Part shown: one piece after another, positions 15,474 through 48,685 of the stretch | How the letters are laid out: each line of letters begins with the position of its first letter | Numbering within the stretch: position 1 is the first letter of the stretch | IMG/VR virus record: IMGVR_UViG_3300046817_000867 | Location: 1 to 51,108 of that record | Direction: 5' to 3' (one strand) | Origin: a virus | DNA: 51,108 nucleotides | Position numbers and translations under genes: made by a program | The notes under the pieces: generated by a model | Told to the model about the DNA's origin: nothing | Seen by the model: the letters and a program-made list of their open reading frames with translations, nothing else | The model's database searches: none

Positions 15474-16157
15474 ATGACGTTCAAAGAGATGCAGGACTTG
15501 GTCATGGGGCGCCTGAATCTCACGTCGACTGACGCACGCACACGCATCAAGGCGGAACTCAATCTCCGTTATCGGGAAGTCCAATCCTCCATCGGGCTCC
15601 AGCAAACCCGGCGTGGCATCGCGACATTTGCGACTGCCAGTGGCGTCCCGACGACCACGCAGTCGGGCATCGCGAAAATCTTTTCCGTCTACGACAACAC
15701 GTACCTGCTGCGCCCGTTGCGCGAGATCACCCTCAACCAACTGAGGATGATGGACTCGGCCGAGGTCACGGTCGGGACCGCGCAGCAGTATGTCGCTGAT
15801 CAGATCAATGACGACGTGATTCAGTTGCGACTGTATCCCGTGCCGACGGTGGCGTACAACCTGATGTCGGACGTGCTGCTGGCCGGCGTCGACATGGTGG
15901 CGGATAGCGATGAGCCGGCGTTCTCGAAAGATTTCCACGACGTGCTCGTGCATGGCGTGATCTACGACGAGCTGATGAAGCTCGAAAAATTCAATCCGCT
16001 GGCGGAAGTGGAAGAGGCGAAGTTCGAGAAGCGTCTCGCGGATTTACGGTTCTTTTTAGCCAAGAGTGCGTGGATCTCTGGACCGAAGCAGACCGACACG
16101 TTTTTGCGTTGGGGTTTATCAGCGCGCGTGTGGCCCTACAATTCGTTGGCTCCGTGA
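15474..16157 (+). CDS. Head-tail adaptor/connector protein (putative)
   Basis: 227 residues from ATG 15474 after GGAGG. N-terminal helices MTFKEMQDLVMGRLNLTSTD and RIKAELNLRYREVQSSIGLQ, then beta strands, then RPLREITLNQLRMMDSAEVT and VIQLRLYPVPTVAYNLMSDV, and a helical C-terminus with the HGVIYDELMKLEKFNPLAEV pattern. This order is that of podovirus gp4/gp10-type adaptor proteins binding under the portal. Stop overlaps the next start (TGATG). Confidence 0.75.
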   Translation: MTFKEMQDLVMGRLNLTSTDARTRIKAELNLRYREVQSSIGLQQTRRGIATFATASGVPTTTQSGIAKIFSVYDNTYLLRPLREITLNQLRMMDSAEVTVGTAQQYVADQINDDVIQLRLYPVPTVAYNLMSDVLLAGVDMVADSDEPAFSKDFHDVLVHGVIYDELMKLEKFNPLAEVEEAKFEKRLADLRFFLAKSAWISGPKQTDTFLRWGLSARVWPYNSLAP

Positions 16158-19495: not shown

Positions 19496-21370
19496 ATGAC
19501 TCGACTGTGTTGGTTGCGTAGTGCGTTAGTGGCGGCGATCGTGAGTCTGCCGGTGTCGGGGTTCGCGCAGGACCGACAGAACATTCCGAGCGGGGCGTCG
19601 TTGCCGGCTAACTGCACGGTCGGCGACATCTTCATGAAGACCGGCACGACGCCCGGCCTCTACAGTTGTCTCACGACGGACACCTGGACGATCTCGGGGA
19701 GCGGCGGAAGTCCCGCCGGATCAAACGGAAACGTCCAGATCAACAACAACGGCTCATTTGGCGCCTACGCGGGCTCAAGCGCGGCAGCCAACCAAGTCGT
19801 CACGGGGTTCGACGCCAGTGGGAATGTCACCTCGACGTCGCTCACGATTAGTTTCTTGCCTGGATCGATTCCGGCGTCGAAGCTCGTCGGCACGGACATC
19901 GCGACCGTCGGCACGATTACGACGGGCGTCTGGAACGGCACGGCGATTGGCGTGACCAAGGGTGGCACAGGCCTCGCGTCTGGCACGTCTGGAGGCGTAC
20001 TGACGTTCACGGGATCGGGCACGCTCGCGTCTAGCGCGGCGCTGACGGCGAATCTGCCGGTGATTGGCGGGGGCGCCGGCGCGGTCGTGAGCGTGGGCAG
20101 CGTCTCAGGGAACACGACGAAGTTCGTGACCGAGAGCGGCAGCGTGACCTCGGGGAACTGCTTCAAGGCGGATGCCAGCGGCAACGCGGTCGACTTCGGG
20201 GCGGGCTGCGGCGGCACGGCGTCCCCAGGTGGCGCGGACACGAACGTGCAGTTCAACGACTCGTCCAGCTTCGGAGGCTCAAGCGGATTTCTCTACAACA
20301 AGACGACCCACGATGCGACGCTGACGGGTCTCATCAAGTCCGCCGGCCAGAACTGCACGTACGTGACCAAGACGACGACGTATACGGTTGGCGTGACGGA
20401 CTGCATTGTCGAAGCGCTGACGAACGCGTTCACGATCAATCTGCCGACGGCCGTCGGGATTCAGGGTCGGTTGTACACGTTCAAGAATCTCCAAACGGCC
20501 AATGCGCTCACGATTGACGCGAATGGTTCGGAAACGATTGATGGGGCGCTCACGGCGTCGGTCATCAACGGAGCGATCACGATTCAGTCGGACAACGCGA
20601 ACTGGCGGATCGTCGGGTCCGGCTCAGCACCATTCACAGACCCAGGCACGGACGCGGTATTGTACTGGCACAATTCGGTGAAGTCCCCGGCGGCCGTGAC
20701 CTTGGGGGCCTCCCTCTCGCTCTCTAGTGGCACGTTGGATGTGGCCGCCAACGGCATCTCGTTGGCCAAGATGGCGACGCAGGCGGACAAGACGATTTTG
20801 TCGAACGTGTCGGGCGGCACGGCGGTGCCGGTGGCCAACACGTCGATCCCACTCAACACGCCGCTCGTGTTCTTGGCGGGCGTCTGCCAGAACGCCACGG
20901 CGTCGATTGGGGTCTCGACGCCCACATCAAACGCGGCGACGGCGCTCTGCAAGGCTGGATCGAACACGCTGTTTGGCGTCGCGCAGTACACGGCGACCGG
21001 GCAGTCGATCCAGGGGCTTGTGCCGATTCTGGAAACGCTGACCTCGACGACCGTCACCGTCTCGATTCAATACTTCCAAGAGACCACCCAGACGGGCGCC
21101 CCGACCTTCACGTTCTCGTGGGCGCGTGTTGGCGCGGCCGGAACGCTCGATCCAGCGTTCTCAGATTGCGATAGTACCGGCACGACGGCGGCCACAGCGA
21201 ATCAGCTCCACGTGAACGCGTGGACCTGCACCGTGACCTCACTCGCAAAAGGGGACGTATTCTTCTGGAAGTTCTCCTATAAGACCGCCCCATCGGGCGG
21301 CGCGTCAAATCAGGACTTGATTACGCTGACCGTGATGCCGGTCGCCAGCAAGCCGATTGGAGGAGGCTAA
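19496..21370 (+). CDS. Fibre-like protein with an N-terminal signal peptide
   Basis: 624 residues from ATG 19496 (TTG at 19490 is possible; AAAGGA site favours the ATG). Residues 1-24, MTRLCWLRSALVAAIVSLPV then SGFA, look like a Sec signal peptide: basic start, hydrophobic core, small residues before the cut. The remainder is Gly/Ser/Thr-rich fibre sequence with the GVTKGGTGLASGTSGGVLTF type of repeat that occurs in phage tail fibres, and PGGADTNVQFNDSSSFGGSS. Several Cys residues (NCTVGDIF, SCLTTD, GNCFK, AGCGG) could form disulfides outside the cytoplasm. An export signal on a virion fibre is odd. Confidence 0.7.
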   Translation: MTRLCWLRSALVAAIVSLPVSGFAQDRQNIPSGASLPANCTVGDIFMKTGTTPGLYSCLTTDTWTISGSGGSPAGSNGNVQINNNGSFGAYAGSSAAANQVVTGFDASGNVTSTSLTISFLPGSIPASKLVGTDIATVGTITTGVWNGTAIGVTKGGTGLASGTSGGVLTFTGSGTLASSAALTANLPVIGGGAGAVVSVGSVSGNTTKFVTESGSVTSGNCFKADASGNAVDFGAGCGGTASPGGADTNVQFNDSSSFGGSSGFLYNKTTHDATLTGLIKSAGQNCTYVTKTTTYTVGVTDCIVEALTNAFTINLPTAVGIQGRLYTFKNLQTANALTIDANGSETIDGALTASVINGAITIQSDNANWRIVGSGSAPFTDPGTDAVLYWHNSVKSPAAVTLGASLSLSSGTLDVAANGISLAKMATQADKTILSNVSGGTAVPVANTSIPLNTPLVFLAGVCQNATASIGVSTPTSNAATALCKAGSNTLFGVAQYTATGQSIQGLVPILETLTSTTVTVSIQYFQETTQTGAPTFTFSWARVGAAGTLDPAFSDCDSTGTTAATANQLHVNAWTCTVTSLAKGDVFFWKFSYKTAPSGGASNQDLITLTVMPVASKPIGGG

Positions 21371-22071
21371 TGCGTCAACTTCTCGCGGCGGGTCTGCTCG
21401 CGATTGGGCTATTGCCGGCCCCGCCGATGTTCACGACGGCCTCGGACAACTTCCCGGGCCCCGATAACACCACGCTCGGCACGGACTGGATCGATCCCGA
21501 AGCGGAGTTTGGCATCGTCAGTCACGCGGCCACCCAGAGGAACGCCGGCGTGAATACGCGTGCCACGGCGTGGTGGAACCCGTCCACCAACAGCTTCACC
21601 GGCAACCAGTTCAGCCAGGTGACCTGCGGCACAGTTGGGGCCAATACGCCGCCCTACGGCAGCCAGTGGTGCGGCGTCGGCGTGAACATGTCAGGATCGA
21701 GTTTCGCCACGACTACCGGCTACCTCATCTACGCCGGTCCCTCCAACGATTGGGAGATCGCCCGTCGTGACGCGGGCGGTGCGGAGGCAAATCTCGCGAG
21801 CGGATCGTACTCGCCCGCAGACGGCGATGTCTTATATCTGGAGCACAACGGGTCACTCCTCACGTTTAAACTGAATGGCACCTCCGTGGGCACGGCCTCC
21901 GACAGCACCTACGTCGGTGGACAACCAGGGCTGAACGTCGATGCCATTCTCTTGATAGATGCCGTGGCATTGACCAGTTGGAGCGGCGGCGATCTCGGCG
22001 GTGGCGCCGTGTTCCCAGCGGCCATTATTAATGGCGCGCCCGTGCGCGGCGGAGGGAGGAACCGCCGATGA
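21370..22071 (+). CDS. Lectin/jelly-roll-like protein with a possible signal peptide
   Basis: 233 residues, start overlaps the preceding stop (TAATG). Residues 1-24, MRQLLAAGLLAIGLLPAPPM then FTTA, resemble a signal peptide. The body begins SDNFPGPDNTTLGTDWI, the DNF..-dgtlgt.W pattern of concanavalin-like carbohydrate-binding domains, followed by strands such as NDWEIARRDAGGAEANLASG and YLEHNGSLLTFKLNGTSVGT. It would suit glycan binding. The Gly/Arg-rich C-terminus GAPVRGGGRNRR is probably disordered. Confidence 0.65.
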   Translation: MRQLLAAGLLAIGLLPAPPMFTTASDNFPGPDNTTLGTDWIDPEAEFGIVSHAATQRNAGVNTRATAWWNPSTNSFTGNQFSQVTCGTVGANTPPYGSQWCGVGVNMSGSSFATTTGYLIYAGPSNDWEIARRDAGGAEANLASGSYSPADGDVLYLEHNGSLLTFKLNGTSVGTASDSTYVGGQPGLNVDAILLIDAVALTSWSGGDLGGGAVFPAAIINGAPVRGGGRNRR

Positions 22072-24146
22072 AGGGTCTGACCATTGCGACCATCGTGATC
22101 CTGGCATTCCAAGTGCGTCTCCCCTTGCGTCTCGTCGGTGGTAGTGGTGGCGGGAGCGCGGTGCTCGACGCGGCGCATATCCAATATGTGGGGTCCAAAC
22201 AGGTGGCCTTCGCTTCAGAGTCCACGTGGGGCTCCGGCCAAGTCTCTGGTTATCGCTCTGGCGGGGTGCTCCATTTTTTGGTCATCGGTGATCAGCGCAA
22301 TCTGAGAAATGTCGATTCAACGGTTGTCTCCGGAGCCTCAACAACGCAGTTTACCGTCGCGTCTGGCGTTGGCGCCCAGTTAACCAACAATGCGTGGATT
22401 GACATCTGTCGCAAAGCGGCCGGGGTCAGTGGGGTGGGATGCAAAGAAGTCTACCCAGAGGACACGAAGATTACGAACATTAGCGGTGATGTGATCACGG
22501 TGAGTCCAGCGCTCGGGGGCATCCCCGCCAGCGGCGACGAGGTCTATCAGGAGTTCATGGCCCCGATTCTTGATATTGCTGACGACGGATCGAGTTGGGT
22601 GCAGGATCCAGCGAGCGTCAACACCTTGGCCATTACGAACATTATCGAGCAGCCCTATCATGGGAGGCGTGGCGGCTTTGATGCGGGTAATAATAATGTG
22701 TGGTCGGCCCTTGGGTATATCACGTCCTCTGGGATTTATGTCCACAACGGCCTGTGGTATTTGTCGTGGTATTGGAGTTACGTCTCGAACACCACGTCGA
22801 GTAATTTCGGCATGTATGATCCCGTCCACGACATTATGTATGGACCGTGGGTGTTGAAAACGTGGGATGGCGATGGAGTGTCTCACCAAGGACAGCAGGG
22901 GTGTGCGATGCTGTTGGCTGACCCGGTGGACAGCACAAAATTTGGATGCACTACGCTCCTCAGTAGCGGCATCACGCAGTTTCCTTGGGGTCCCAACTTG
23001 ACCGTGGGATTACCCTGGCCAACGTCGAGCACCTCAAACGCCTTCGGCTCGAACATCCTCGACTTTGGCACGTCCCTCGGGGGTGGATCGCCACGTTACA
23101 TTTATCAATATTACATGGGGGACCCGGGGACGGCGAACTACTTCAATCAAGACGGCACGGTCCACGGATTTATTCGCTCGTTTCGCTATCCCACCAGTTA
23201 TAACTATATGGACGAGCCGAGAACGCATACCGCAGATGGCACACGTCGCCTCAGTGCGGACCCTGCCCAGAACGGCGGCGTCAACACCTTTAACGAGATT
23301 GACCGCATTCAGGGCGCCATGTATTTTCGCGGAACGAACCGACAGGGGGTGATTTTTGCGACGAACCTGCTCGGGCGGAACGCCGGCTATAGCAACACGA
23401 GTTGCACGGTCACGCAGCACGAGTTTTACGCAAACGCCGGTCAGGGTTATGTGCTGACCTCAAGCGGAGACTTTTCCACGGACACCGTCATTACGGGGCT
23501 CACGACCGGATATTCACACAACCTGAGTCACTGGGATAACACGCTGCATCTCGGCGGTTGGAACGATTGTGGTGCTGGGTGTATCGGACAAGAGTTCAAC
23601 GTGGGCGAGACGATTCAGGGGAACATCAGTGGACACACTGGCACGGTCGTCCAAGACCACCGCAATCTGACATGCGATCATGGCTGTGATGCATCACCTC
23701 CCTATGGATATGCAACAACTGGTCCATCGTGGAGAAATCGTCCCCGTCATGTGGAGTTTCTGGTCTATGACGCAGATACCCTAGACTCCGTGCGCGCCGG
23801 GTCCACGACGGATTGGACTCCAGACCCCACGAATTACATCGACTTCGATGATACCTACGGATATCACCTGCTGGGCACGGGCACATCGGGAGACGGGACC
23901 GATGCGGAAGCCTATAGCTTGGGATTTTTCCAAGACCCAGATGATCCGACCTCTTTCTACATCGTGACTCAGCGTTCGTGGGGCGGGGGGACGATGGGCC
24001 TCTCGAAGTTCCACATCCTCGACACAGCCGAGCCCGAGCCGACGCTGTTGGGGTGGCTATGGCAGTGGTTCAACGAGATCGTGCCGAGATTGACGAAGAC
24101 GCATCCGGCGCTGATCCCGAGTCTGTTGAGGGCGACTCCGCGATAG
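22068..24146 (+). CDS. Large putative receptor-binding or glycan-active protein
   Basis: 692 residues, ATGA-coupled to the previous gene. Hydrophobic N-terminus MKGLTIATIVILAFQVRLPL could be a signal or anchor. The body is rich in Trp, Tyr, Gly and Asp with propeller-like strands (SGIYVHNGLWYLSWYWSYVS; NFGMYDPVHDIMYGPWVLKT; RHVEFLVYDADTLDSVRAGS), reminiscent of five-bladed glycosidase or sialidase folds, but I cannot identify catalytic residues. The third consecutive fibre-region gene with a hydrophobic N-terminus. A tailspike or depolymerase is the best guess. Confidence 0.55.
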   Translation: MKGLTIATIVILAFQVRLPLRLVGGSGGGSAVLDAAHIQYVGSKQVAFASESTWGSGQVSGYRSGGVLHFLVIGDQRNLRNVDSTVVSGASTTQFTVASGVGAQLTNNAWIDICRKAAGVSGVGCKEVYPEDTKITNISGDVITVSPALGGIPASGDEVYQEFMAPILDIADDGSSWVQDPASVNTLAITNIIEQPYHGRRGGFDAGNNNVWSALGYITSSGIYVHNGLWYLSWYWSYVSNTTSSNFGMYDPVHDIMYGPWVLKTWDGDGVSHQGQQGCAMLLADPVDSTKFGCTTLLSSGITQFPWGPNLTVGLPWPTSSTSNAFGSNILDFGTSLGGGSPRYIYQYYMGDPGTANYFNQDGTVHGFIRSFRYPTSYNYMDEPRTHTADGTRRLSADPAQNGGVNTFNEIDRIQGAMYFRGTNRQGVIFATNLLGRNAGYSNTSCTVTQHEFYANAGQGYVLTSSGDFSTDTVITGLTTGYSHNLSHWDNTLHLGGWNDCGAGCIGQEFNVGETIQGNISGHTGTVVQDHRNLTCDHGCDASPPYGYATTGPSWRNRPRHVEFLVYDADTLDSVRAGSTTDWTPDPTNYIDFDDTYGYHLLGTGTSGDGTDAEAYSLGFFQDPDDPTSFYIVTQRSWGGGTMGLSKFHILDTAEPEPTLLGWLWQWFNEIVPRLTKTHPALIPSLLRATPR

Positions 24147-31547: not shown

Positions 31548-31764
31548 TCCCCAGTTCACGCTGACCCCGACCGCCGTGACCGCCATCGAGACCCTCAGCG
31601 GCGGCGGGACGATGTACTTTCAGGCCCGCACGTACGGCGTCATCGCGTCCACCTTGGACGACGCCTTGGCCGGCGGGACGTTCATCCTCCGCGTGCAACA
31701 GCGCCTCAAGAATCTCACGCGTGTTGTCGGCGTGGCCGACACAGACGCCTTCGCCGACGCCTAG
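31537..31764 (+). CDS. Small protein ending the rightward block (75 aa)
   Basis: TTG start at 31537, overlapping the end of the 984-residue gene by 11 bases. MAADPQFTLTPTAVTAIETL with later YFQARTYGVIASTLDDALAG, alpha/beta mixed, no recognised family. Its stop overlaps the stop of the convergent gene by four bases, so the two transcription units meet exactly here and no terminator fits between them. Confidence 0.55.
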   Translation: MAADPQFTLTPTAVTAIETLSGGGTMYFQARTYGVIASTLDDALAGGTFILRVQQRLKNLTRVVGVADTDAFADA

Positions 31765-32030
31765 TCGCTTGAGCGGATGATCGTCGGTTTGGCGACGAAC
31801 TTCTTGATCTCGCGAGTTGTGTCAGTCATCCACAGCCACTTCTCGGCCACGAGCACACGCTCCCCACTCGCTTTCGCGATTTCATACGTGCCATCCTCGT
31901 GGCGTTCCACGGTATCCCCTACTTCCGGTTCCACTTCAAACCCTTCACCGTAGGCGCCATGTCGGCCATCGGCGCGGTGGTCCGGATAGAAGAACACGAG
32001 CTCGCGCACGGTCTTGGTGTCATCGGCCAT
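31761..32030 (-). CDS. Small acidic hypothetical protein (89 aa)
   Basis: Starts at ATG 32030 (MADDTKTVRELVFFYPDHRA). It has a basic/acidic mid-section with GFEVEPEVGDTVERHEDGTY, suggestive of a small beta-barrel, and ends FVAKPTIIRSSD. It is the last gene of the leftward late arm, overlapping the glycosyltransferase by 11 bases. Function unknown. Confidence 0.6.
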   Translation of the reverse strand: MADDTKTVRELVFFYPDHRADGRHGAYGEGFEVEPEVGDTVERHEDGTYEIAKASGERVLVAEKWLWMTDTTREIKKFVAKPTIIRSSD

Positions 32031-33213
32031 CGATCGTCTCCTGACAATACGTGTGAAATTGATCGGCAATCGCGTCCCACTGGAAGTCCGGGAGGGTGGC
32101 CAGTTCGTACGCCTTGACGGCGAGATCGCGCCGGAGGTCGGCGTGATCGTAGACGTCAGACAGCGCGGCGGCCGCCGCGTCGTACCCGACGACCTCGCCC
32201 ACGGTGTTCGCCCCGCAGGGCACGACATGCGACATCGACGTCGGCATGAGCCGCGCCGTCCCCCGGAAGAGATCGCCGTAGGCCGCCGTGTCCGGGAGGA
32301 TCTGCGGAATTCCGCAGGCGGCACTCTCCATTGCGACGAGGCCGAATCCCTCGCCATGCGTCAGGGACCAGTGGACGTCCCACGACCGGTACACGTTCGG
32401 CAGTTTCTCGCGGGGCCACAAGACGCCGGGATCGAGGTCCATGTCGGTGAACATGAGCCGCTGTTTGGGAAAGCCGAAGTGATACGCGAGTTGGTTCAAG
32501 TCCCAGCCGTACGGATCCGCTAGCGCACAGTGGAGCATCAGCCGGACGTTCTCGGGCTTGCCGGTGTCACTCCACCAGCGGGCGAAGTACTGGAGCGTCA
32601 GATCGTAGCGCTTGCGGGCGGCGTTCCGGTCCGCGCGGCCGATGATGAAGTCGTCGAGCCACGGGTCGTGAAAGTGGAGCGCCTGACGGGCCTCGCGGGC
32701 GTTGCCAGGCGTAAAAAAATTCGTGTCGATGCCATACGGCAAGACCCCCGTCGGGCCGCGGAAGCCGCCGTCGATGAGCGCCTGCACCCCAAAGTCGGTC
32801 GGGGCCAAGAGCCGTGCGATCCGACCGTTCATCTCCCTCGCGGCCCACTGGTTCTTGGCGTCCGCCGGACACCACGCGAGAATGGGCGGCTGCTTGGCGG
32901 CGTCGAGCCGTGCGAGTTGCTGCAAATACAGGAGCACGTTCCACGAGTCCTGATGCAGCACGACGAGCTGGGGTTCGATGGCGTTCACGAGGTGCGCGAA
33001 CCGGTTGACGCCGAACACATCGCTCCCGTGCAGCGACGCCGGGTAGATCATAAACTCCCGCTGAAGCGGGTGCGGATCGCCGTGCGTGTTGATGCCCAGG
33101 ACGTAAATCGTGTAGGCGTCCTTGGCTTTCAGACGCGTGAGGATCGCCTCGTTGACGGTGCCGAACCCTGTCGCACAGGCGAAGTCGCCGACGAAGAGCA
33201 GTTTCGGTTTCAG
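32020..33213 (-). CDS. GT-B glycosyltransferase, probably starting at CTG
   Basis: 397 residues if translated from the CTG at 33213. The mature-looking N-terminus KPKLLFVGDFACATGFGTVN is the first strand and Gly loop of a GT4-like Rossmann fold, and GTHGEGF-type HWSLTHGEGFGLVAMESAAC with GIPQIL near the end is the E..G......EA.acG donor-binding motif. No ATG, GTG or TTG exists upstream in frame close to this strand, and the first internal ATG would delete about 65 residues. The CTG overlaps the previous stop by four bases (CTGA) and has GGGAG eight bases upstream. Probably transfers a sugar to a glycan or DNA base; acceptor unknown. Confidence 0.75.
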   Translation of the reverse strand: MKPKLLFVGDFACATGFGTVNEAILTRLKAKDAYTIYVLGINTHGDPHPLQREFMIYPASLHGSDVFGVNRFAHLVNAIEPQLVVLHQDSWNVLLYLQQLARLDAAKQPPILAWCPADAKNQWAAREMNGRIARLLAPTDFGVQALIDGGFRGPTGVLPYGIDTNFFTPGNAREARQALHFHDPWLDDFIIGRADRNAARKRYDLTLQYFARWWSDTGKPENVRLMLHCALADPYGWDLNQLAYHFGFPKQRLMFTDMDLDPGVLWPREKLPNVYRSWDVHWSLTHGEGFGLVAMESAACGIPQILPDTAAYGDLFRGTARLMPTSMSHVVPCGANTVGEVVGYDAAAAALSDVYDHADLRRDLAVKAYELATLPDFQWDAIADQFHTYCQETIDGR

Positions 33214-34073
33214 AGCGCACGCTCCCAGAAGTCGCGACCGATGGTCGCCCAGTTGAACCGATCTTCGAGCCAGAGTTTTTCCGAGCGACTCACCGGCGTC
33301 GGCGGAGAGCCGGTAAAGATAGCCCGCAAGGACGCCGTGACGTCGGCCGGGGAGGCTTCCGGAATGTAGATCGCGTGGTCCTCGAGCCAGTGCCGGTAGT
33401 GCGGTCGGTCGAACACGATGGGCCGCGCGCCGCAGGCGAGTCCTTCGTAGACGGGGAGCTCGAAGCCCTCGACCCGTCGGAGGCCGGTCACGTACTGGCA
33501 ATCGGCCCACGCCACCAGGACATCGACGTCCTGAATGTCGAGCTTCCAATCGACGTGATCGCCAAGTTTCAGATTGTGCCCCAAGTGAAAGACGAACCCC
33601 AGGCCCTTGGCCGCCTCGACCACTTCGTGCAAACATTCCGCGTCGGCGACATACCCGGAACAGCCCACCAGATATTTCGGAGCCCCGTCTTTGACAAACC
33701 CACGGAGAAAGAGGTCGTCCACGCCAAGCGGGGCGTAGTAGAAGTTCGGTATCCCCACCGACCACAATGTCTGGAGGTCATAATAGCTCCAGACGACGGC
33801 CGCGCCGAGCCACAGATTGAGCCAGGGCCAGAGATGCGGCTCTTGCGTCGACATCAGGCAGTACTGAATCATGGCGTACCGCTGGCCGCGCGCACGGCAG
33901 CGGGCGACGGCCTCAACCGTCTCGGGATAGCCGATGACGTGGAGCACGACGAGATCGGCGGACGCCTCGTCCGGAACGATCGTGACCGTCCGTGGGGCCG
34001 ATCGCATGAGCGCCGTCGCCACGCGGCCCATCGCGCGGGAGAGGCCCGGTTGCGGCGCGAGGTACACGGTCAT
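33210..34073 (-). CDS. Glycosyltransferase family 1/4-like protein
   Basis: 287 residues from ATG 34073. N-terminal PGLSRAMGRVATALMRSAPR followed by strands, then NFYYAPLGVDD (acceptor-side loop), GCSGYVADAECLHEVVEAAK, DVDVLVAWADCQYVTGLRRV and the donor-site motif EGFELPVYEGLACGARPIVF. This is a short GT-B protein, missing part of the usual N-terminal domain. It pairs with the GT downstream (overlap 4 bases), suggesting sequential sugar addition. Cytoplasmic; no membrane segment. Confidence 0.75.
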   Translation of the reverse strand: MTVYLAPQPGLSRAMGRVATALMRSAPRTVTIVPDEASADLVVLHVIGYPETVEAVARCRARGQRYAMIQYCLMSTQEPHLWPWLNLWLGAAVVWSYYDLQTLWSVGIPNFYYAPLGVDDLFLRGFVKDGAPKYLVGCSGYVADAECLHEVVEAAKGLGFVFHLGHNLKLGDHVDWKLDIQDVDVLVAWADCQYVTGLRRVEGFELPVYEGLACGARPIVFDRPHYRHWLEDHAIYIPEASPADVTASLRAIFTGSPPTPVSRSEKLWLEDRFNWATIGRDFWERAL

Positions 34074-34856
34074 TCAGCGTCCCGCGCTCGCGTCGAGCCA
34101 CTTGGCTGGGTCACGCTCTTCTCGCCACACGAGAGGTAGAGCGGTATCACGTCCAGCACACACCGTACAGGCGCCGAGCGGTGCAGTGCGGTCAAGATAG
34201 GCCCGGAGTGCTGACTCAGTAAGTCCAGCAATCGCGATTCCATCTGTGCCAAATCGCTGGCCTTGAATGAGTGACGGGATGTGGGGCCCGCAACAACACG
34301 TAAATACAAAGCCACGGGTGGCACTTCGTGAAAAATGTCGGAAGAAACAAGTCTGAAATTTGGCAGCCGTGGCCGCGGCGTCCGTCGGGACCGGCTCGAG
34401 CATCGTGCGGAAGTTCGGGACGCGCCGTTCGTCTTTCGGGACATAGGTGACTCCGTTGGCGGCACAGGCATCGACAATCCACTGAATCTCGGCCTCGGTC
34501 TGTTTGCCTGGGTAGAGCGAATGCACAAGGTGGTCAAATGACCGCCAGAAGCGGTCGGGCATCTTCGCGACGAGAAGACCGTTCGTCCAGACTTCGATCG
34601 CGTCAGCGATCTTGGAGGCCCGCGCGATGTCAAGGATCGTGCAGAGGTCTTTGTGGAGGAGGGGTTCGCCGCCGAGCGCCCCCCACTTCTCCGCGTGGAG
34701 GAATGGCGCGAGGTGCGTCAGATCGTGTTCGACATCTGCCGGCACCGAGAACCACGGGCCGGCCTTCCGCCAGAGCGGCACACTGTGATTGCAGGCAACA
34801 CACGAGAGCTGGCAGGCCGTCGTCAGATCGGTCTCCAAATGCGGAATCTGGATCAT
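34074..34856 (-). CDS. Radical SAM protein
   Basis: 260 residues from ATG 34856, which overlaps the methyltransferase stop by four bases. TTACQLSCVACNHS holds the CX3CX2C cluster motif (C15, C19, C22) for the 4Fe-4S/SAM centre, followed by ALGGEPLLHKD (GGEP at 62-65), the second radical SAM motif. Additional Cys at 170, 187-189, 230 and 233 (CFFRHF, CCCGP, CTVCAGRD) could hold an auxiliary cluster as in SPASM/Twitch proteins. It could modify a peptide, a sugar or a nucleobase. The flanking glycosyltransferases and methyltransferase point to a glycan or hypermodified-base pathway but do not decide between them. Confidence 0.85.
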   Translation of the reverse strand: MIQIPHLETDLTTACQLSCVACNHSVPLWRKAGPWFSVPADVEHDLTHLAPFLHAEKWGALGGEPLLHKDLCTILDIARASKIADAIEVWTNGLLVAKMPDRFWRSFDHLVHSLYPGKQTEAEIQWIVDACAANGVTYVPKDERRVPNFRTMLEPVPTDAAATAAKFQTCFFRHFSRSATRGFVFTCCCGPHIPSLIQGQRFGTDGIAIAGLTESALRAYLDRTAPLGACTVCAGRDTALPLVWREERDPAKWLDASAGR

Positions 34857-35389
34857 ACCCGGATCGCCCCAATGCCGCCCCACGTGCCGCCCGGCACGAG
34901 AAACGCCGTCTTCTCGCCTGGGAGTTCCTTCCAGAAGCGCGGCGTGCCATGACCGACCTGACGCAGAAAGTCAGAATCGACGATGTCATGAAACGCGATG
35001 ACGCCGCCCGGCTTGACGAGCGGACGATACCACTGATAGTCCTGCGTGACGCCTTCGTAGGAGTGGTCGCCATCGATGAAGAGCAGGTCGACTTGGGCGG
35101 AGCAGTAGTACACGACGTCTCGGAACGTGCCAAAGTCGTGCGAATTTCCAATGATCGATTTGAACCGCGTCTCTTGCCAGAGCGCCCGATGCGCCTCCAG
35201 CGTCCCCGCTGGGCCGAGGCTGTCTGTTCCGTGGTAGTCCACACCGATAATCGTCGTCGCGCCGAGCCGATGCCAGTGGCGGATCGTCCCGCCCATCGCC
35301 ACCCCGATCTCGACGACGGCATCAATCGGCCCAAGCCACGCCGTGAAGTCGGCCAACTCGGACGGGTGCTGTTCAAGCGGCGGTCTCAT
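34853..35389 (-). CDS. Class I SAM-dependent methyltransferase (TylF/CmcI/MTase-24-like)
   Basis: 178 residues from ATG 35389. VVEIGVAMGGTIRHW (residues 25-39) is the SAM-binding glycine loop, IIGVDYHG the acidic strand-2 end, and DLLFIDGDHSYEGVTQDYQW (101-120) the FIDGDHSYE signature of small sugar/antibiotic O-methyltransferases with Asp106/Asp108 as likely metal ligands. KPGGVIAFHD follows. The start overlaps a 36-residue ORF stop by ATGA. An earlier in-frame start is not needed for the fold. Likely methylates a hydroxyl of a sugar or small molecule. Confidence 0.8.
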   Translation of the reverse strand: MRPPLEQHPSELADFTAWLGPIDAVVEIGVAMGGTIRHWHRLGATTIIGVDYHGTDSLGPAGTLEAHRALWQETRFKSIIGNSHDFGTFRDVVYYCSAQVDLLFIDGDHSYEGVTQDYQWYRPLVKPGGVIAFHDIVDSDFLRQVGHGTPRFWKELPGEKTAFLVPGGTWGGIGAIRV

Positions 35390-35496
35390 TCGCAGCCTCC
35401 GCCACGAAAGACGTGGCGCCAATGGTGGCATAGGTAATCAGAAAAATGTCCCGCAGGAAAGCGCTTCACGTCGCGAGGCGGTAAGCGTCCCATCAT
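35386..35496 (-). CDS. Small Cys/His peptide (36 aa)
   Basis: ATG 35496 encodes MMGRLPPRDVKRFPAGHFSD then YLCHHWRHVFRGGGCE. Start overlaps the GT2 stop and stop overlaps the methyltransferase start, each by four bases, so it is tightly coupled on both sides. C-H-H...H...C could form a small zinc site. No function known. Confidence 0.55.
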   Translation of the reverse strand: MMGRLPPRDVKRFPAGHFSDYLCHHWRHVFRGGGCE

Positions 35497-36164
35497 CGCC
35501 AGCCCTCCCCGAGTTCCGCCAATTTCAGATCGAGCGGTGCGATGACGTCTTCCGGGGCCGAGAACGCCAGCATGGGTGTCCCGGCGCCCGGCTGGAGCTG
35601 CTCGTAGCGGGCCGCGATGGCCCGTCGGGCATCGAGCGGCTTCACCAGGAATTTGTGATGCTCAATGAGGCCAGGGGCTAAGGCGCCGCCGCCGTGCGGG
35701 CAGCCCGCATGAATGGTCGTCCGACCGCCAGCCAAGAGTTTCGTCGTGAGCCGCGTCTGATGATCGGGCCACAGCGGCGCGTTGGTAATGTATTGGTTCG
35801 GCACGCCGAAGAGATTGGCCCGCGGAAACTTCCAGACTGGATACCCGTTCTGAAAGTCCTTCGCCAGCCACCGGAGCATCGCGGGCGACATCACTTCGTC
35901 ATCGTCGATCCGGAGCACCCAGTCTCGTCCACACATCGTCACGGCCTCATCCAATACGCTCTCGAGGAACCCTCGGCTCTGCACGATGCGGGTCGGCGAC
36001 TCGCGGACGGACGCCGAGATGGCTTCCAGCCGTCCGAGCGCCTCATGGCCATCGGCCACGAGCACGCACTCGGCACCCAGCGCCCGCGCCGCGCCTTCCA
36101 GGTGGCCCAGGAAGTAGGGCGTGTACGATTCGGCCTTGGTGACGCAGAGGAGGGAGAGATTCAT
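35493..36164 (-). CDS. Glycosyltransferase family 2-like (GT-A) protein
   Basis: 223 residues from ATG 36164, coupled by ATGA to the upstream gene. N-terminal MNLSLLCVTKAESYTPYFLG starts a GT-A Rossmann fold. Residues ~80-90, WVLRIDDDEVMSP, hold the DXD-type metal site at the end of a strand, followed by WKFPRANLFGVPNQYITNAP and DHQTRLTTKL. The sequence is somewhat shorter than typical GT2 enzymes. It extends the glycosyl/radical SAM cassette to five consecutive genes, counting the small peptide. Confidence 0.75.
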   Translation of the reverse strand: MNLSLLCVTKAESYTPYFLGHLEGAARALGAECVLVADGHEALGRLEAISASVRESPTRIVQSRGFLESVLDEAVTMCGRDWVLRIDDDEVMSPAMLRWLAKDFQNGYPVWKFPRANLFGVPNQYITNAPLWPDHQTRLTTKLLAGGRTTIHAGCPHGGGALAPGLIEHHKFLVKPLDARRAIAARYEQLQPGAGTPMLAFSAPEDVIAPLDLKLAELGEGWR

Positions 36165-36550
36165 GGACGCCACATCGGTTCCCACAAGGGATCCCCGTGT
36201 TTGGTTAACACGGTGGGGGCCGCCGTCGGTGTCACGATCTTTGCTGTGACGTATTCGTAGCCGTTGAGGTTGAACATCACGGCCGCGGCATGATCTTCGT
36301 CGGTGTCGCCGCGCATCCACTGGGCAAAGTGCCGGGCGGCGGAGGCTTTGAACCGGGCGCGCTCTTCACCATCGCACGCCTGCATCCAGTTGCGGGCGGC
36401 GTATTTCTTCGCGCCCTTCGTCAGATGCACGGCCCACCGCTCCAGCATCGGCCCATCAAAAACCAGTGAATAGTCGGTCTTGTCGTCGGCCGTGTCGCGT
36501 ACCATGCCGCTCGCGAACGTCTGCCGCGTGCCGGAATCTTTCACGTCCAT
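36161..36550 (-). CDS. dATP/dGTP diphosphohydrolase-like protein (DUF5664)
   Basis: 129 residues. GTRQTFASGMVRDTADDKTD followed by GPMLERWAVHLTKGAKKYAA and RNW is the conserved core of this MazG-like all-alpha family, with acidic residues in RDTADDKTDY and later FAQWMRGDTDEDHAAAVMFN (DEDHAAA) as likely metal ligands. Family members hydrolyse (d)ATP and dGTP to the monophosphate. One of them (MazZ) clears dATP in phages with 2-aminoadenine DNA, but no PurZ-like gene is seen here. It may tune nucleotide pools for replication. Confidence 0.75.
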   Translation of the reverse strand: MDVKDSGTRQTFASGMVRDTADDKTDYSLVFDGPMLERWAVHLTKGAKKYAARNWMQACDGEERARFKASAARHFAQWMRGDTDEDHAAAVMFNLNGYEYVTAKIVTPTAAPTVLTKHGDPLWEPMWRP

Positions 36551-36553
36551 CAG

Positions 36554-36685
36554 TCACCACCACTTCGAGACAAAATGCACGACGACCCAGACGGCCGCGA
36601 TGAAGAGCGCTGCATAGATGACCGGAATCAACAGAATCAGTCCCGCCACGCCGAGCGCCGCGCAGGTTTTGAGGAATTCTTTCAT
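36554..36685 (-). CDS. Small membrane protein (43 aa)
   Basis: ATG 36685 overlaps the nucleotidase stop by one base. MKEFLKTCAALGVAGLILLI then PVIYAALFIAAVWVVVHFVS and KWW: one long or two short hydrophobic helices with positive charges at both ends. Holin or small membrane regulator possible. The N-terminal extension of the open frame is out of place and lacks a ribosome binding site. Confidence 0.6.
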   Translation of the reverse strand: MKEFLKTCAALGVAGLILLIPVIYAALFIAAVWVVVHFVSKWW

Positions 36686-37317
36686 CACAACTCCCCGGCG
36701 ATCTTCGCCTGAAAATCCGCGAGTGAGTCTAGCACCGAAATGTCCGCGAATCGCAACGATTCGTGGGCGTGGGCGTTGTAGGTGGCCGAGAGCAGACACA
36801 CGTCGCACGTCGGGACGTGCCGTTTGACGTCACGGACGTGATCGACATTGTCGTCCAGAAAGTGCGTCAAGTGGAGCGCCTTGGCCAGCCGCCCCTTGCC
36901 TCCACGCGCCATCAGCACGGTCGGGACCATGCCCGCGAACCCGTGATTTTTCAGCCAGAGCTCGCTCTGGTCCTTGGCCCGCGTCCCCGCGCGGGCCGTC
37001 AGGAAGTAAATCTCATGGGACGCCGTCGCCGTCCAGTTGGCGAGCGAGACTGACCGCCAGAGCCAGTCCAGAAAGCGCACCGCGCCGGGCGCCGGCGGCA
37101 GGGTCGCCCAGAACGCCTTGTCGGCGTGCATCTGTCGATACGCCTCGGCCTGATGCTCCGCCGTGTAGCCGAGGGTCTCGGCGTAGTCCCAGCCGGCGGG
37201 CGACTCATGGGTGGGGACGAGATTTTCGCGTCCGGCCACCTTCGCCAACAGCTCTCGGTTGGCGTGATTCCAGTTGACGAGCGGACCGTCGAGGTCGAGG
37301 CCGAGGCGCAGTGTCAT
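36685..37317 (-). CDS. HAD-family 5'(3')-deoxyribonucleotidase-like protein
   Basis: 210 residues from ATG 37317, ATGA-coupled. GLDLDGPLVNWN carries nucleophile Asp8 and acid/base Asp10 (DxD motif I). YFLTARAG gives motif II Thr107, GGKGRLAKAL Lys141 or Lys146 motif III, and HFLDDNVDHV Asp155/Asp156 motif IV. The arrangement matches NT5C-type nucleotidases, which dephosphorylate deoxynucleoside monophosphates. With the DUF5664 protein next to it the phage could route dATP/dGTP to nucleosides. Confidence 0.8.
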   Translation of the reverse strand: MTLRLGLDLDGPLVNWNHANRELLAKVAGRENLVPTHESPAGWDYAETLGYTAEHQAEAYRQMHADKAFWATLPPAPGAVRFLDWLWRSVSLANWTATASHEIYFLTARAGTRAKDQSELWLKNHGFAGMVPTVLMARGGKGRLAKALHLTHFLDDNVDHVRDVKRHVPTCDVCLLSATYNAHAHESLRFADISVLDSLADFQAKIAGEL

Positions 37318-37784: not shown

Positions 37785-39022
37785 CGGTCCTCCACGGGCG
37801 TAAAGTGCGCCACGGCGATCAGGCCCTCGGTTTTGTCGTAGACGTACGCTTCCGCCCCGCGGAGGTTGCCCACGAACTGATTATCGCTATGCCAGGAGTC
37901 CGGCGCACAGAGCGCCGGAGAGATTCTGACGCGGACACCGTGAAACTCTTGAAGCCGCGTCTGGTGCAAGTGGCCCGTATGGACCTCGCGGAAGGTCGAC
38001 GAGCCGAACATCTTCGGCTGTTCCGTCGCGAAAAGCAACGGCCAGTCGGCGGCCTTCCCTTTGTCGCCGTGCGTGTACATCAGCGCGACGTTCCCGTACT
38101 GGACATACTTTCGTAGCGTCGGGTCGCCGAGAATCTCCACGTCCGGCGTGGCGTGATAGAGACACGACAGCGAGTCACTCAAGTGGTAGGTCGACAGTTG
38201 ATCGTGATTGCCTGGCACACAGACGACCGTCACGGGCGCGATCTGGCGCAGCCGGTCGATGGCCCGCGAGATCAGTCGACGCGCGATCCCGAACGCCTTG
38301 CAGTAGCGCGTGTCGGTATCGAGCGGCGTCCCGCGCGTGGTCGTCCCTTGCTTCGTGTCCGAATGCAGCAGATCGTTGCCCACCGGAAACACGATCCGAT
38401 CGAACGTGAAGGTCTTCGTGCGCTCGATCAGGGCGTGGACCGCCTGGTCGAAGAGCTTTTCCGCGATCTTGACGTCGTAGTCCGTGTACCCGGTTTCCGG
38501 CTTCCACGCGAGCTTACCGAGATGGAGGTCGGGAATGGCGAGTTCAAGGAGAACAGATCCGCGATCACTCGCTCTTTTGTTTTCGCTTGCCACTCTCGGA
38601 GGAGCAACATGAGCGTCGACAAGTTGCCTCTTGGCGTCGGCGAGCAGACTGGCGAGTTCTGCTTTGACCGCTTGGATCGGCGCGTTGCGGCGGAGCCACG
38701 CTTTGACTTGGAAGAGTGGCTGACTGGTGAGGTTCCCTGCGGCATCTTTGGCTCCCATCTCCCACTTGTTGCAGACCCAGCGTTCCACGATCCACTCGTG
38801 CACATCGATCTCGCAGACCCGGAGGAGGTCCGCCAACGTCTTGACGCGCTCCGTGGTCGTCTTGGCCATCGTCGCCGTCGGCCCGTCGGTCTCGAAGGAC
38901 TCCGTCGCCTCGGGCTGATTTTTCTTGGCGCGCGCGAGCGTGCAGCGGCGGCACAGGCCAGTGACGTTGTCCGATCGCAGCGGCGTCTTCTCGCAGGCCG
39001 TACAGAAGCGCTTGACGCTCAT
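37781..39022 (-). CDS. Calcineurin-like metallophosphoesterase
   Basis: 413 residues. Motifs in order: DLHLGK (165-170), GND (215-217), GNHD (271-274), HGD (318-320) and HTGHLH (348-353), the full two-metal phosphoesterase set. N-terminal C7xxC10 and C24xxC27 form a zinc ribbon, followed by a helical DNA-binding-like region (residues ~55-140). Members next to phage replication genes usually act as nucleases or phosphatases in DNA processing. Substrate unknown. Overlaps the L,D-transpeptidase-like gene by ATGA. Confidence 0.85.
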   Translation of the reverse strand: MSVKRFCTACEKTPLRSDNVTGLCRRCTLARAKKNQPEATESFETDGPTATMAKTTTERVKTLADLLRVCEIDVHEWIVERWVCNKWEMGAKDAAGNLTSQPLFQVKAWLRRNAPIQAVKAELASLLADAKRQLVDAHVAPPRVASENKRASDRGSVLLELAIPDLHLGKLAWKPETGYTDYDVKIAEKLFDQAVHALIERTKTFTFDRIVFPVGNDLLHSDTKQGTTTRGTPLDTDTRYCKAFGIARRLISRAIDRLRQIAPVTVVCVPGNHDQLSTYHLSDSLSCLYHATPDVEILGDPTLRKYVQYGNVALMYTHGDKGKAADWPLLFATEQPKMFGSSTFREVHTGHLHQTRLQEFHGVRVRISPALCAPDSWHSDNQFVGNLRGAEAYVYDKTEGLIAVAHFTPVEDR

Positions 39023-39408
39023 GCCGGCTTCTCATAGTGGGCCACCACGAACAGGTCACGTTCGCCACTCGTCCAGATTTTCTCGCGCACGTCGCGCGGC
39101 AGAATCACGCAGCCTTCGGACGCCTGGCCGGGGGTGACGACGCTATCGCCATGAATCAGAAAGCCTGACCGCCCGTACATCTGATTGGCGGGATCGGGAT
39201 TTAAGCCGAGCACGTACGGCCCGTGCGTCATCGTGTCGACCGGCGGCCCTTCGATGGTGTAGTGCCCGACCGGAATCGGCCCGACGTGCTTTTGGGCCTC
39301 GGCGGCCGGGTTGTTCTTGCCGTCCGGCTCAGCCCCGCTGTAGCCGACGCCCTTAAAGACCCCGTTTCGGGTCAAGTAGCCTTCCGCTTGCGTGTACGTC
39401 CAACTCAT
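39019..39408 (-). CDS. Tlde1/DUF2778-like L,D-transpeptidase-fold protein
   Basis: 129 residues from ATG 39408, coupled to the helicase stop. GVGYSGAEPDGKNNP and GPIPVGHYTIEGPPVDTMTH, then NQMYGRSGFLIHGDSVVTPG and QASEGCVILP: His86 and Cys100 in the HGxxxx...S.GC pattern are the catalytic pair of YkuD-like enzymes. Tlde1 effectors cut or exchange peptidoglycan stem peptides. In a phage this may be the lysis enzyme, because no other endolysin is seen. No signal peptide is present, so a holin would be needed. Confidence 0.8.
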   Translation of the reverse strand: MSWTYTQAEGYLTRNGVFKGVGYSGAEPDGKNNPAAEAQKHVGPIPVGHYTIEGPPVDTMTHGPYVLGLNPDPANQMYGRSGFLIHGDSVVTPGQASEGCVILPRDVREKIWTSGERDLFVVAHYEKPA

Positions 39409-45374: not shown

Positions 45375-45627
45375 GGTCCCACTCCTCCTGCCGTCGCTGG
45401 CCCAGTTTGGCCACGTAGCCCTTGAGCGTCACAATCTCCGCCAGCGCCACCGCGAGCGCCTCGCGGTACCACTGGGCCGTCGTCACCGCGTGCTCGATCG
45501 CCGTCGGCCACGGCTCGGCCAACGCATCCGTCGGGAGCACCCGTGGCAGCTCCGACACAAACGCCAACTCCACGCGCTCGACGTCCCACGATTCGGCCGG
45601 CGGTCTACGCCCCACCCAATCCCCCAA
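45361..45627 (-). CDS. Small hypothetical protein (88 aa)
   Basis: Starts at ATG 45627. MGDWVGRRPPAESWDVERVE, then an amphipathic helix EHAVTTAQWYREALAVALAE continuing into IVTLKGYVAKLGQRRQEEWD. Overlaps the end of the preceding 345-residue gene by 23 bases and the start of the next by 14. Function unknown. Confidence 0.55.
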   Translation of the reverse strand: MGDWVGRRPPAESWDVERVELAFVSELPRVLPTDALAEPWPTAIEHAVTTAQWYREALAVALAEIVTLKGYVAKLGQRRQEEWDRGDA

Positions 45628-46642
45628 ACATCGTCGTTCCGGCGTGCCGGTAGAGCGCCGTCACGCGCGCCACGCGCTCGTCGGACACGAGGCCACGCGC
45701 GAACTCGTAATGCACGTTCTCATACGCTACACAGACCGGTCGCCCACGCTTCCGAGGACGGCTGAACCAGTCCGGCGCCACATGCGTCCCCGGATCGTTC
45801 GGATCGTCAAACGGCATCACCTGCGTCCGGACCACGTTCCCGAAGTAGTTGACGCTCCCTGGGGCCGCGAACCGCTCGATCCCTTCGATCCAGCGGCCGA
45901 GCCAGGTCGGGCGGTTCGTCGGATCGTAGGGCTGATTGACCATCGGATCGTCCGAGTAACTGGGCCCGTTCGCTCCGTGACGCGTCTCTTGGAAAACGCC
46001 ATCACACTCGAGGCCCGCCGGCGTGTCCCACCAGCCCTGTTCGTCTTCGTCCTGACGGGCTGCCGTGAAGTGGCCATCCGACCCGTCATCGTCGGTCGGG
46101 CGCGTGTGAATCAGAATCTTCGCCGCGTCCCCGAGGGAGTCGCGCATCGTGAGGATCGCCGCGTCGATGTCCGGACGGTCCCGGCCGCCGCCGAGCACAT
46201 CTTCCCAGTCGTCGTGCACCCAGAGGAACGGCGCGTACGACTGGAGGGCCTGGCACCCGTCTCGGAGCCGTCCGTCATAGATGGCCGAGGTCGGCAGATC
46301 CGCGATGATCGGCACGATCGGGAAGAGGCCCGCGTTCAAGACTTCCTCGAGATACGCCGTGAATTGGAACCACGTCAGATCGCGCGGCCCGAGCTCCGGC
46401 CGGACCTGGGTGATCGCGTCGTACTGATAGCGCGGCGCCAGCGTGACATGCGTCAGACCGTGCGCCTGTTTCCACTGGAGGAGCGCCCGCCGTTCGCCCG
46501 CGTCCGGCACGGAGCAGTAGAACACATCGAACCACGGCACGCCCTGCCAGCGGTGCGAGCAGAAGCCGGCGCGGACGATATCGCGTGAACCCTGCACCGG
46601 CCCACTCCCGCCGCCGAGCGCCAAGCGCGTCAGCGCGTCCAT
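45605..46642 (-). CDS. Putative glycoside-hydrolase-like (TIM-barrel) protein
   Basis: 345 residues. Rich in Trp, Asp and His with barrel-like strands (HGLTHVTLAPRYQYDAITQV; AGLFPIVPIIADLPTSAIYD; YAPFLWVHDDWEDVLGGGRD; AAKILIHTRPTDDDGSDGHF; RPVCVAYENVHYEFARGL). Acidic residues at the ends of these strands (HDDWED, YENVHYE) are the places where glycosidase catalytic carboxylates would be. No signal peptide. I cannot name a GH family. Together with the neighbour at 47417 it may be a cell-surface-degrading or host-binding factor. Confidence 0.45.
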   Translation of the reverse strand: MDALTRLALGGGSGPVQGSRDIVRAGFCSHRWQGVPWFDVFYCSVPDAGERRALLQWKQAHGLTHVTLAPRYQYDAITQVRPELGPRDLTWFQFTAYLEEVLNAGLFPIVPIIADLPTSAIYDGRLRDGCQALQSYAPFLWVHDDWEDVLGGGRDRPDIDAAILTMRDSLGDAAKILIHTRPTDDDGSDGHFTAARQDEDEQGWWDTPAGLECDGVFQETRHGANGPSYSDDPMVNQPYDPTNRPTWLGRWIEGIERFAAPGSVNYFGNVVRTQVMPFDDPNDPGTHVAPDWFSRPRKRGRPVCVAYENVHYEFARGLVSDERVARVTALYRHAGTTMFGGLGGA

Positions 46643-47223: not shown

Positions 47224-47420
47224 TTGGACTCCTTGATCTGGTCGAGAACAATAGCGCCGATACCGAATACGGCTCCAAAGAACGAGAACACCGCCGATGC
47301 AGCGAGCGTTGCGGACATGCCTGGAAGCCCTGCTGAATATACTGCTCCGGCCGCACTCAGACCGCTAGCTATCGCAAAGACAAACACCCCTACCACCTGG
47401 TTTTCTCGGCTTGGACTCAT
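47220..47420 (-). CDS. Two-span small membrane protein, holin candidate
   Basis: 66 residues from ATG 47420, ATGA-coupled on both sides. MSPSRENQVVGVFVFAIASG followed by a second hydrophobic helix ATLAASAVFSFFGAVFGIGA and a charged end VLDQIKESK. Small, two spans, polar C-terminus: typical of holins, but also of superinfection-exclusion proteins. Confidence 0.6.
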   Translation of the reverse strand: MSPSRENQVVGVFVFAIASGLSAAGAVYSAGLPGMSATLAASAVFSFFGAVFGIGAIVLDQIKESK

Positions 47421-48685
47421 AGCAGCAGCTTTCTCGCCGCGAGTCCCGGCGGCGTCGGGGGAATCGGAGGCTTGACGGGAAACGCGGGGCGGCCTTGGGG
47501 CGACGAAAAGAGATCGGCGCATTGCTGGTAGAGCGGCTTGAACTGGCCAATACTCGTGCCTCTATCGAGGCCGAACAGCGCGACCCCGAGGCATTCGGTC
47601 TCATCAATCGTGCTAGTCACCCACTCGTAGACCGCATTCATCCCGGCCAGCACTTGAGCATCCGTCAACGTGCCGCGATTCCAACAACCAGCGACTAGGA
47701 GGAATTGTAGGCCATGTTCCTCAGCCTGACCAATCGCCTCGTCGATCCGGCCATCGAATTGATCGAGGGTTTCGTGTGGGTCCACGTAGCAGTTCCACGC
47801 GATCACTTGCCACGGCTTGAGCCACGGCGCAATCGTCCCGACCTGCGAGATGTCGCAATAGACCACGCATTCATACTCCGGAATCGGGTCGCCGTGCTCG
47901 GCGTCGATCCACTGGCGGATGGACGTGCCCTCGGGATGCGTCACGAGTCCCGCCGTGCTGAAAAGGATGCGACTGTTCATGCCTGTCGTGTAGGTGCTCG
48001 GCTCGCCGTTTGCCATCGGATACGGCGCGATGATCTTGGGCTGAGTAAAGGGTCGAATGTCCGGGAGCGGAGGCGTCAGCGGTTCTACGGTCCACTCGGC
48101 CGGCGTCGAGAAGATCGTCGGGTCGCCCGAAATGGCCGCCGTGCCATCGTCGCTCAGCCGTGGCGGAATCTGGTAGTCGCCCGTGAAGACACGCCAGAGC
48201 TGCTGCGTGGGCGCGTGGTAGCAGACGACGCCTGGGGCGCCTGCGGTCGCCTGCCCAATCGTCCAGTCGCCGCGCGTCATCCAGAGCGGCAAGAGATACG
48301 TCGAGCCGTCGGCCAGCGTCACGGCCTTCGTGCGGGTCGCCCCGCCGCACATGACGATCTCGTTCATCGGCGTGATGTCGAGCATGCCCTCGCTGTAGTA
48401 GGTCCACCCTGGCACGGGCAGCACTGGGCCGCCTTCAATCGGGCGGGCATAGCCTTGCCCGTCCGTCTGCTGCCAAACAACGTAGCCCTGCCAGTCGAAC
48501 GCCACGTCCCAGTGACCAGGCGTCGGCCCGAGCGTCTCAAGCGTTCCGTCGTCATGCTGCAACACCGCGTTCCCGGCCGCGTCGTGGCCGCAGACCCAGA
48601 CACGATTCGCCCAGACGCAGACGCGGGCATAGGTGAGCGATGAGGTCAGGCGTTGGCCTTGGCGGGCGTCAGCGAAGAGATACAT
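47417..48685 (-). CDS. Large propeller/TIM-barrel-like protein of unknown function
   Basis: 422 residues. N-terminal ~250: Trp-rich blades with repeated strands (VCVWANRVWVCGHDAAGNAV; HWDVAFDWQGYVVWQQTDGQ; YYSEGMLDITPMNEIVMCGG), propeller-like. C-terminal ~170: PEYECVVYCDISQVGTIAPW, WQVIAWNCYVDPHETLDQFD and FLLVAGCWNRGTL, like strands of a TIM barrel, then a Pro-rich end PVKPPIPPTPPG. Two-domain architecture of this sort occurs in carbohydrate-active proteins. No catalytic motif identified. Confidence 0.45.
   Translation of the reverse strand: MYLFADARQGQRLTSSLTYARVCVWANRVWVCGHDAAGNAVLQHDDGTLETLGPTPGHWDVAFDWQGYVVWQQTDGQGYARPIEGGPVLPVPGWTYYSEGMLDITPMNEIVMCGGATRTKAVTLADGSTYLLPLWMTRGDWTIGQATAGAPGVVCYHAPTQQLWRVFTGDYQIPPRLSDDGTAAISGDPTIFSTPAEWTVEPLTPPLPDIRPFTQPKIIAPYPMANGEPSTYTTGMNSRILFSTAGLVTHPEGTSIRQWIDAEHGDPIPEYECVVYCDISQVGTIAPWLKPWQVIAWNCYVDPHETLDQFDGRIDEAIGQAEEHGLQFLLVAGCWNRGTLTDAQVLAGMNAVYEWVTSTIDETECLGVALFGLDRGTSIGQFKPLYQQCADLFSSPQGRPAFPVKPPIPPTPPGLAARKLLL

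Follow-up and report, generated by a model that had tools for sequence, protein, structure and literature searches.

The five genes at positions 32020-36164 of the viral DNA analysed here (IMG/VR virus record, 51,108 bases; hereafter the window, meaning the whole stretch) form a genuine conserved module that can be explained in part, and its new element is a phage-specific radical SAM enzyme of the SpeY/HygY type that probably acts in a virion-glycan pathway. With moderate confidence, we read the module as a phage cassette for the assembly and tailoring of a glycan with a methylated sugar, most likely carried on a virion protein. To our knowledge, virion glycosylation in phages is established for a few mycobacteriophages, with simple sets of glycosyltransferases and methyltransferases, and no earlier description of a SpeY/HygY-like radical SAM enzyme in a phage was found. 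If our reading is true, radical sugar chemistry of the antibiotic type occurs in virion operons, where it is swapped with amino-sugar genes, and phage glycobiology reaches to rare sugars.

All five genes are present on the minus strand at the coordinates given in an earlier note on this sequence and are tightly coupled; the families named there (two GT-B glycosyltransferases, a radical SAM protein, a TylF-like methyltransferase and a GT-A glycosyltransferase) were correct. In the direction of transcription, the locus contains:

36161..36550, minus strand: upstream coupled gene, dATP/dGTP diphosphohydrolase N-terminal-like (PF18909, 6.2e-14)
35493..36164, minus strand: GTA, GT-A (GT2-like) glycosyltransferase, 223 aa, LRIDDDE motif
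35386..35496, minus strand: 36-aa frame between GTA and MT, probably no gene
34853..35389, minus strand: MT, class I SAM O-methyltransferase of the Methyltransf_24/CmcI-TylF type, DGDH and HD motifs
34074..34856, minus strand: rSAM, twitch-domain radical SAM enzyme, SpeY/HygY-like
33210..34073, minus strand: GTB2, GT-B glycosyltransferase domain, 287 aa
32020..33213, minus strand: GTB1, GT4-type GT-B glycosyltransferase, 397 aa, probable CTG start
31761..32030, minus strand: 89-aa protein after GTB1, 11-base overlap

The genes had been described as joined by 4-base overlaps throughout. Such overlaps exist at 36161-36164 (between the upstream gene and GTA), 35493-35496, 35386-35389, 34853-34856 and 33210-33213, but not between rSAM and GTB2, where TGA and ATG follow each other end to end. 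The conserved N-terminus of GTB1 is retained only with translation from a CTG codon (CTGA overlap, with GGGAG upstream) or by translational coupling. In the nearest relative, L009, a homologue of the 89-aa gene likewise comes after GTB1 (iterated profile 1.9e-31; gene order). The upstream gene at 36161..36550 had no counterpart in the cassette loci in a profile search and is a neighbour outside the conserved cassette. The 36-aa frame, earlier counted as a member, exists in the sequence; since the gene caller did not pick it, a profile search gave no homologue among 169 loci, and GTA and MT have no such frame between them in the relatives, it is probably not a gene and was removed from the cassette.

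Viral contigs were searched with GTB1 and rSAM alignments as well as by profile searches. The order GTA-MT-rSAM-GTB2-GTB1 was found, whole or in subsets, in dozens of contigs, with the full order in L089/L090/L097 and L093. GTA and MT are encoded by a single ORF in L098 and L091, GTB2 and GTB1 by a single ORF of about 700 aa in L089, L092, L094, L098, L027 and L014, and there are variants without rSAM (L056/L058) or without MT (L092). An independent search, with the GTA alignment, yielded 60 viral loci; among these, the 45 distinct loci besides the window were accompanied by GTB1 in 37, by a cassette rSAM in 26 and by MT in 17 cases. As this gene order is found again in contigs with rSAM proteins just 42-63% identical to that of the window, it lies far beyond chance, and the deep divergence of the cassette proteins argues for selection for the unit rather than recent copying. 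The conserved synteny, for which the earlier note had proposed to search and whose absence it had named as counter-evidence, and the GTB2-GTB1 and GTA-MT fusions both back its suggestion that the genes serve one pathway. A DNA-level search of the phage collection gave no match to the window.

In Pfam, the rSAM protein scores under the cut-off. As a single query it found no close relatives, and the family opened up upon addition of one distant homologue; similarly, a first scan of bacterial genomes was empty, and relatives in antibiotic clusters were then found with a 15-member alignment, the second scan including Streptomyces hygroscopicus NBRC 13472 and Streptoalloteichus tenebrarius. The 15-member profile matches SpeY over its full length with an E-value of 2.5e-50. 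Foldseek with the AF2 model (pLDDT 95) likewise retrieved SpeY (E 3.4e-22, TM 0.85/0.74, rmsd 2.2), followed by BtrN (E 1.1e-7), and the best viral protein in BFVD reached a TM of 0.70 at most. In the 15 homologues, both the CX3CX2C motif (C15/C19/C22) and four auxiliary cysteines (C170, C187, C230 and C233), which align with those of SpeY and HygY, are invariant; these four constitute a twitch auxiliary-cluster site, which accounts for the extra Cys clusters reported earlier. One further cysteine, Cys188, is likewise invariant across the cassette family ('CC' in 33/33). In a phylogenetic tree with some long branches, the cassette rSAMs form one clade (100/100), and a 99/91 branch unites them with SpeY, HygY and a second group of phage proteins (L099, L103, L105-L107; phage group 2). 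Judged from sequence and model, rSAM thus belongs to the SpeY/HygY-type twitch enzyme family, in which the cassette proteins form a phage clade of their own next to HygY and SpeY. The HygY-like rSAM genes of phage group 2 occur with many glycosyltransferase and methyltransferase genes, seemingly directly upstream of a portal-like gene.

SpeY (PDB 7wzv/7wzx/7x0b), the twitch radical SAM dehydrogenase of spectinomycin biosynthesis, resembles the window rSAM in profile, fold and CX3CX2C motif, and both have four auxiliary cysteines and a serine at the position of HygY Cys183. The two differ in that they share about 28% identity, and that the phage protein falls into a separate clade, carries the additional invariant Cys188, and is encoded in a gene coupled to glycosyltransferases and an O-methyltransferase. 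With HygY, the epimerase of hygromycin B, the window rSAM has the superclade and the cluster cysteines in common, and L179, a protein of a hygromycin-type strain, aligns with it over the domain. The S. hygroscopicus protein, numbered from its MSYG start, has a cysteine at 183, which we take to be the catalytic, hydrogen-donating residue of the HygY epimerase. By alignment this residue is absent from the window rSAM and kept in phage group 2. At that position, all ten cassette proteins from the first set have Ser or Thr; in the wider set, Ser/Thr predominates, and some proteins have Cys, Arg or Asn. A single residue position splits one clade into epimerase-like phage proteins (Cys) and dehydrogenase-like ones (Ser/Thr). 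The extra cysteine of the 'CC' pair was also considered as the equivalent of the HygY epimerase cysteine and ruled out, as the L179 alignment places Cys183 elsewhere.

According to its title as cited in PMC10991966, the study of Besandre et al. (2021) describes HygY as a twitch epimerase with latent dehydrogenase activity upon a single-cysteine change. BtrN (PDB 4m7t, butirosin), which likewise combines the twitch fold with a four-cysteine auxiliary cluster, carries out the two-electron oxidation of a cyclitol alcohol (PMC9012708), but is a much weaker match to the window rSAM than SpeY (E 1e-7, TM 0.54). On the basis of the residue at the Cys183 position, the tree and the parallel with BtrN, rSAM is predicted to oxidise a hydroxyl group of a sugar; alternatively, it would epimerise the centre through Cys188. 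Cys188 could be an alternative hydrogen donor and, because it is invariant, the rule that serine means dehydrogenase may not hold for the cassette rSAMs. A bolder and less probable reading is that many phages possess this dedicated SpeY/HygY-like clade to place an unusual sugar, keto- or epimerised and O-methylated, on proteins of their virions, with Cys188, next to the auxiliary cluster, as a new catalytic residue.

Among the glycosyltransferases, GTA is weak by sequence (Pfam PF00535, 0.015; family profile to chondroitin synthase, 0.0013), and its AF2 model (pLDDT 84) matches GT2-type GT-A enzymes in Foldseek with an E-value of 2e-7. GTB2 matches PF00534 at 1.1e-4, under the curated cut-off. 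For GTB1, phrog_2170 matches over the full length (2.9e-28), and PF20706 matches at 2.2e-7; homologues occur in phages S-EIV1, S-CBS4, TJE1, phiPsal1 and Mae-JY09, and the search returned at least 572 candidate viral stretches. Neither GTB2 nor GTA had a match among the named phages. MT matches PF13578 (1.7e-16) and, reflecting its similarity to CmcI, PF04989 (1.5e-4); its motifs D106-G-D-H109 and H134-D135 are invariant in 7 homologues, and a profile search of the PDB gave matches to O-methyltransferases.

The plus strand of the window encodes a terminase, a weak portal match, a major head protein, an internal virion protein and an SU10-type adaptor, a structural gene set by which the phage looks like a podovirus. 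Primase, helicase and exonuclease genes form a minus-strand block of replication type, at the distal end of which the cassette is located, facing the structural block and not inside the structural operon. In many siphovirus-like relatives, the cassette is situated inside the head-to-tail operon between the head-closure and neck/tail genes, preceded by portal, protease, cement, capsid, connector and head closure, and followed by neck, tail completion, major tail protein, tail assembly chaperone and tape measure; some of these structural labels were set by position, and PHROGs served to verify the families of the connector, major tail, neck, adaptor and head proteins. Recognisable head or tail genes lie within 8 kb in 20 of the 45 distinct GTA loci, a count obtained with profiles that miss the structural genes of some phage types. 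The neighbourhoods of GTB1 homologues contain a major tail protein in 38/80 loci, a connector also in 38/80, a DegT aminotransferase in 12/80 and a hexapeptide transferase in 11/80.

The nearest relative, L009, has structural genes in common with the window (internal virion protein 36-37% identical); used as a query, the internal virion protein of the window had an already known relative as its sole match. Between a HAD-like gene and GTB1, L009 encodes a DegT aminotransferase (7.4e-97) and a hexapeptide transferase (3e-10), alongside one further ORF. Where the window has the cassette set, L009 thus carries an acyltransferase and other glycosyltransferases besides the sugar aminotransferase. 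As the same place is filled in this way, the cassette site is, by its gene content, a variable sugar-tailoring slot.

Of the three roles left open earlier, glycan modification is the best supported, and nucleobase hypermodification is without a supporting gene in the window. We favour the former because the relatives of rSAM act on glycosides, the L009 slot carries sugar-amine enzymes, and the cassette is sited in virion operons in relatives. In the order of steps that we infer, the GTA, GTB2 and GTB1 domains would assemble a short glycan from nucleotide-sugars of the host; the window yielded no sugar-nucleotide enzyme. rSAM would split SAM to generate a 5'-deoxyadenosyl radical, which would take the carbinol hydrogen of a glycoside, and the second electron would pass to the auxiliary cluster to yield a keto-sugar; alternatively, Cys188 would return a hydrogen atom, such that the centre is epimerised. 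The CmcI/TylF-type MT would then O-methylate the sugar. The putative acceptor is a head or tail protein of the virion, the decoration of which would change surface recognition or stability.

A parallel that supports this reading by analogy, in the sense of working alike and not of membership, is found in cluster O mycobacteriophages (Corndog type), in which an O-methyltransferase gene and three glycosyltransferase genes, overlapping one another, lie between the portal gene and the protease and capsid genes. Passages in PMC11600133 (citing Freeman et al., 2023) and PMC12363180 report that these enzymes modify the capsid and tail tube. The cluster O methyltransferase, of the TylF/Methyltransf_24 group, is distantly related to the window MT (hmmsearch 4e-5, hhalign 90%), and no significant profile match was obtained between the glycosyltransferases of the two systems. 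Unlike the window cassette, the cluster O system is without a radical SAM enzyme, and it is the window copy that lies outside the head operon. Synechococcus phage S-CBS4 and Pontimonas phage phiPsal1 encode, next to portal or capsid genes, a GT2 and a methyltransferase together with a homologue of GTB1; these clusters, known from their genes, are without a radical SAM gene, and their methyltransferases show no recognisable homology to the window MT.

The main weakness of the virion reading is that the window cassette lies outside the structural operon, beside a nucleotide-hydrolase-like gene. Host-surface and base modification are nevertheless less likely. In the first case, the same chemistry would modify LPS, teichoic acid or capsule during infection, for instance to block superinfection or to aid progeny release. 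The separation of the module from the structural genes in the window would fit, as would the TarS and GtrB-type surface glycan enzymes among the fold matches of GTA, and surface polysaccharide pathways typically contain GT4 and CmcI-type enzymes. However, the head-tail operon siting in relatives is a late position, at which an altered surface of a doomed host is of little use, and no flippase, polymerase or membrane-anchored glycosyltransferase was seen in the window; we consider this explanation rather unlikely.

Improbable, in our estimate, is DNA hypermodification, in which sugars would be placed on a modified phage base and then tailored as protection against restriction. It would agree with the replication and nucleotide genes adjoining the window cassette, and with the thymidylate-synthase-family genes on two other cassette-bearing contigs (G005 (L095), 22952-23452; G007 (L098), 65122-65601). 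This family also includes base hydroxymethylases, so the two could, by sequence, be ordinary or base-hydroxymethylating enzymes. PF00303 is absent from the window (search control positive), although the record may be incomplete, and a Pfam scan of 50 other window proteins revealed no base-modifying family. A TET/JBP dioxygenase was found neither in that scan nor in a window search whose control also gave none. Moreover, MT and rSAM match families of sugar and antibiotic tailoring, and the L009 slot carries amino-sugar enzymes.

A diffusible product, such as an aminoglycoside-like or nucleotide-sugar small molecule, is suggested by the rSAM homologues in the spectinomycin and hygromycin pathways and by the cyanophage S-SCSM2R, where a related rSAM is encoded beside DegT and a gene annotated as inosamine amidinotransferase. 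As no aminocyclitol, export or resistance genes were seen in the window, and the siting in virion operons is repeated in relatives, we assign it a very low probability. A RiPP system, with the 36-aa peptide encoded near rSAM as its precursor, was rejected as extremely unlikely: the peptide was neither called as a gene nor conserved in the relatives, the twitch site of rSAM holds one cluster, and the structure closest to rSAM is that of the sugar enzyme SpeY rather than of a peptide maturase.

Several further observations were made in passing. In the window, the gene at 36685-37317, upstream of the cassette beside 36161-36550 (dGTP_diPhyd_N), has a weak deoxyribonucleotidase match and is nucleotide-hydrolase-like. 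The large proteins encoded at 16157-18100, 19529-21370, 22068-24146, 45605-46642 and 47417-48685 have no PHROG match at 0.01. A small gene between exonuclease and primase (39019-39408) is probably the source of a Tlde1-domain Pfam match (1.2e-13), and two adjacent small proteins with alike N-termini (IPGxHP...NxRxLRxxGHPE) are encoded directly before the terminase (6662-7084 and 7235-7516). In S-SCSM2R (L237, PQ898602, 3134-9887), which is a cultured phage, the cluster mentioned above also comprises several glycosyltransferases and 2OG oxygenases and represents aminoglycoside-like tailoring genes in a phage; its rSAM has, as judged by eye, a cysteine at the HygY Cys183 position.
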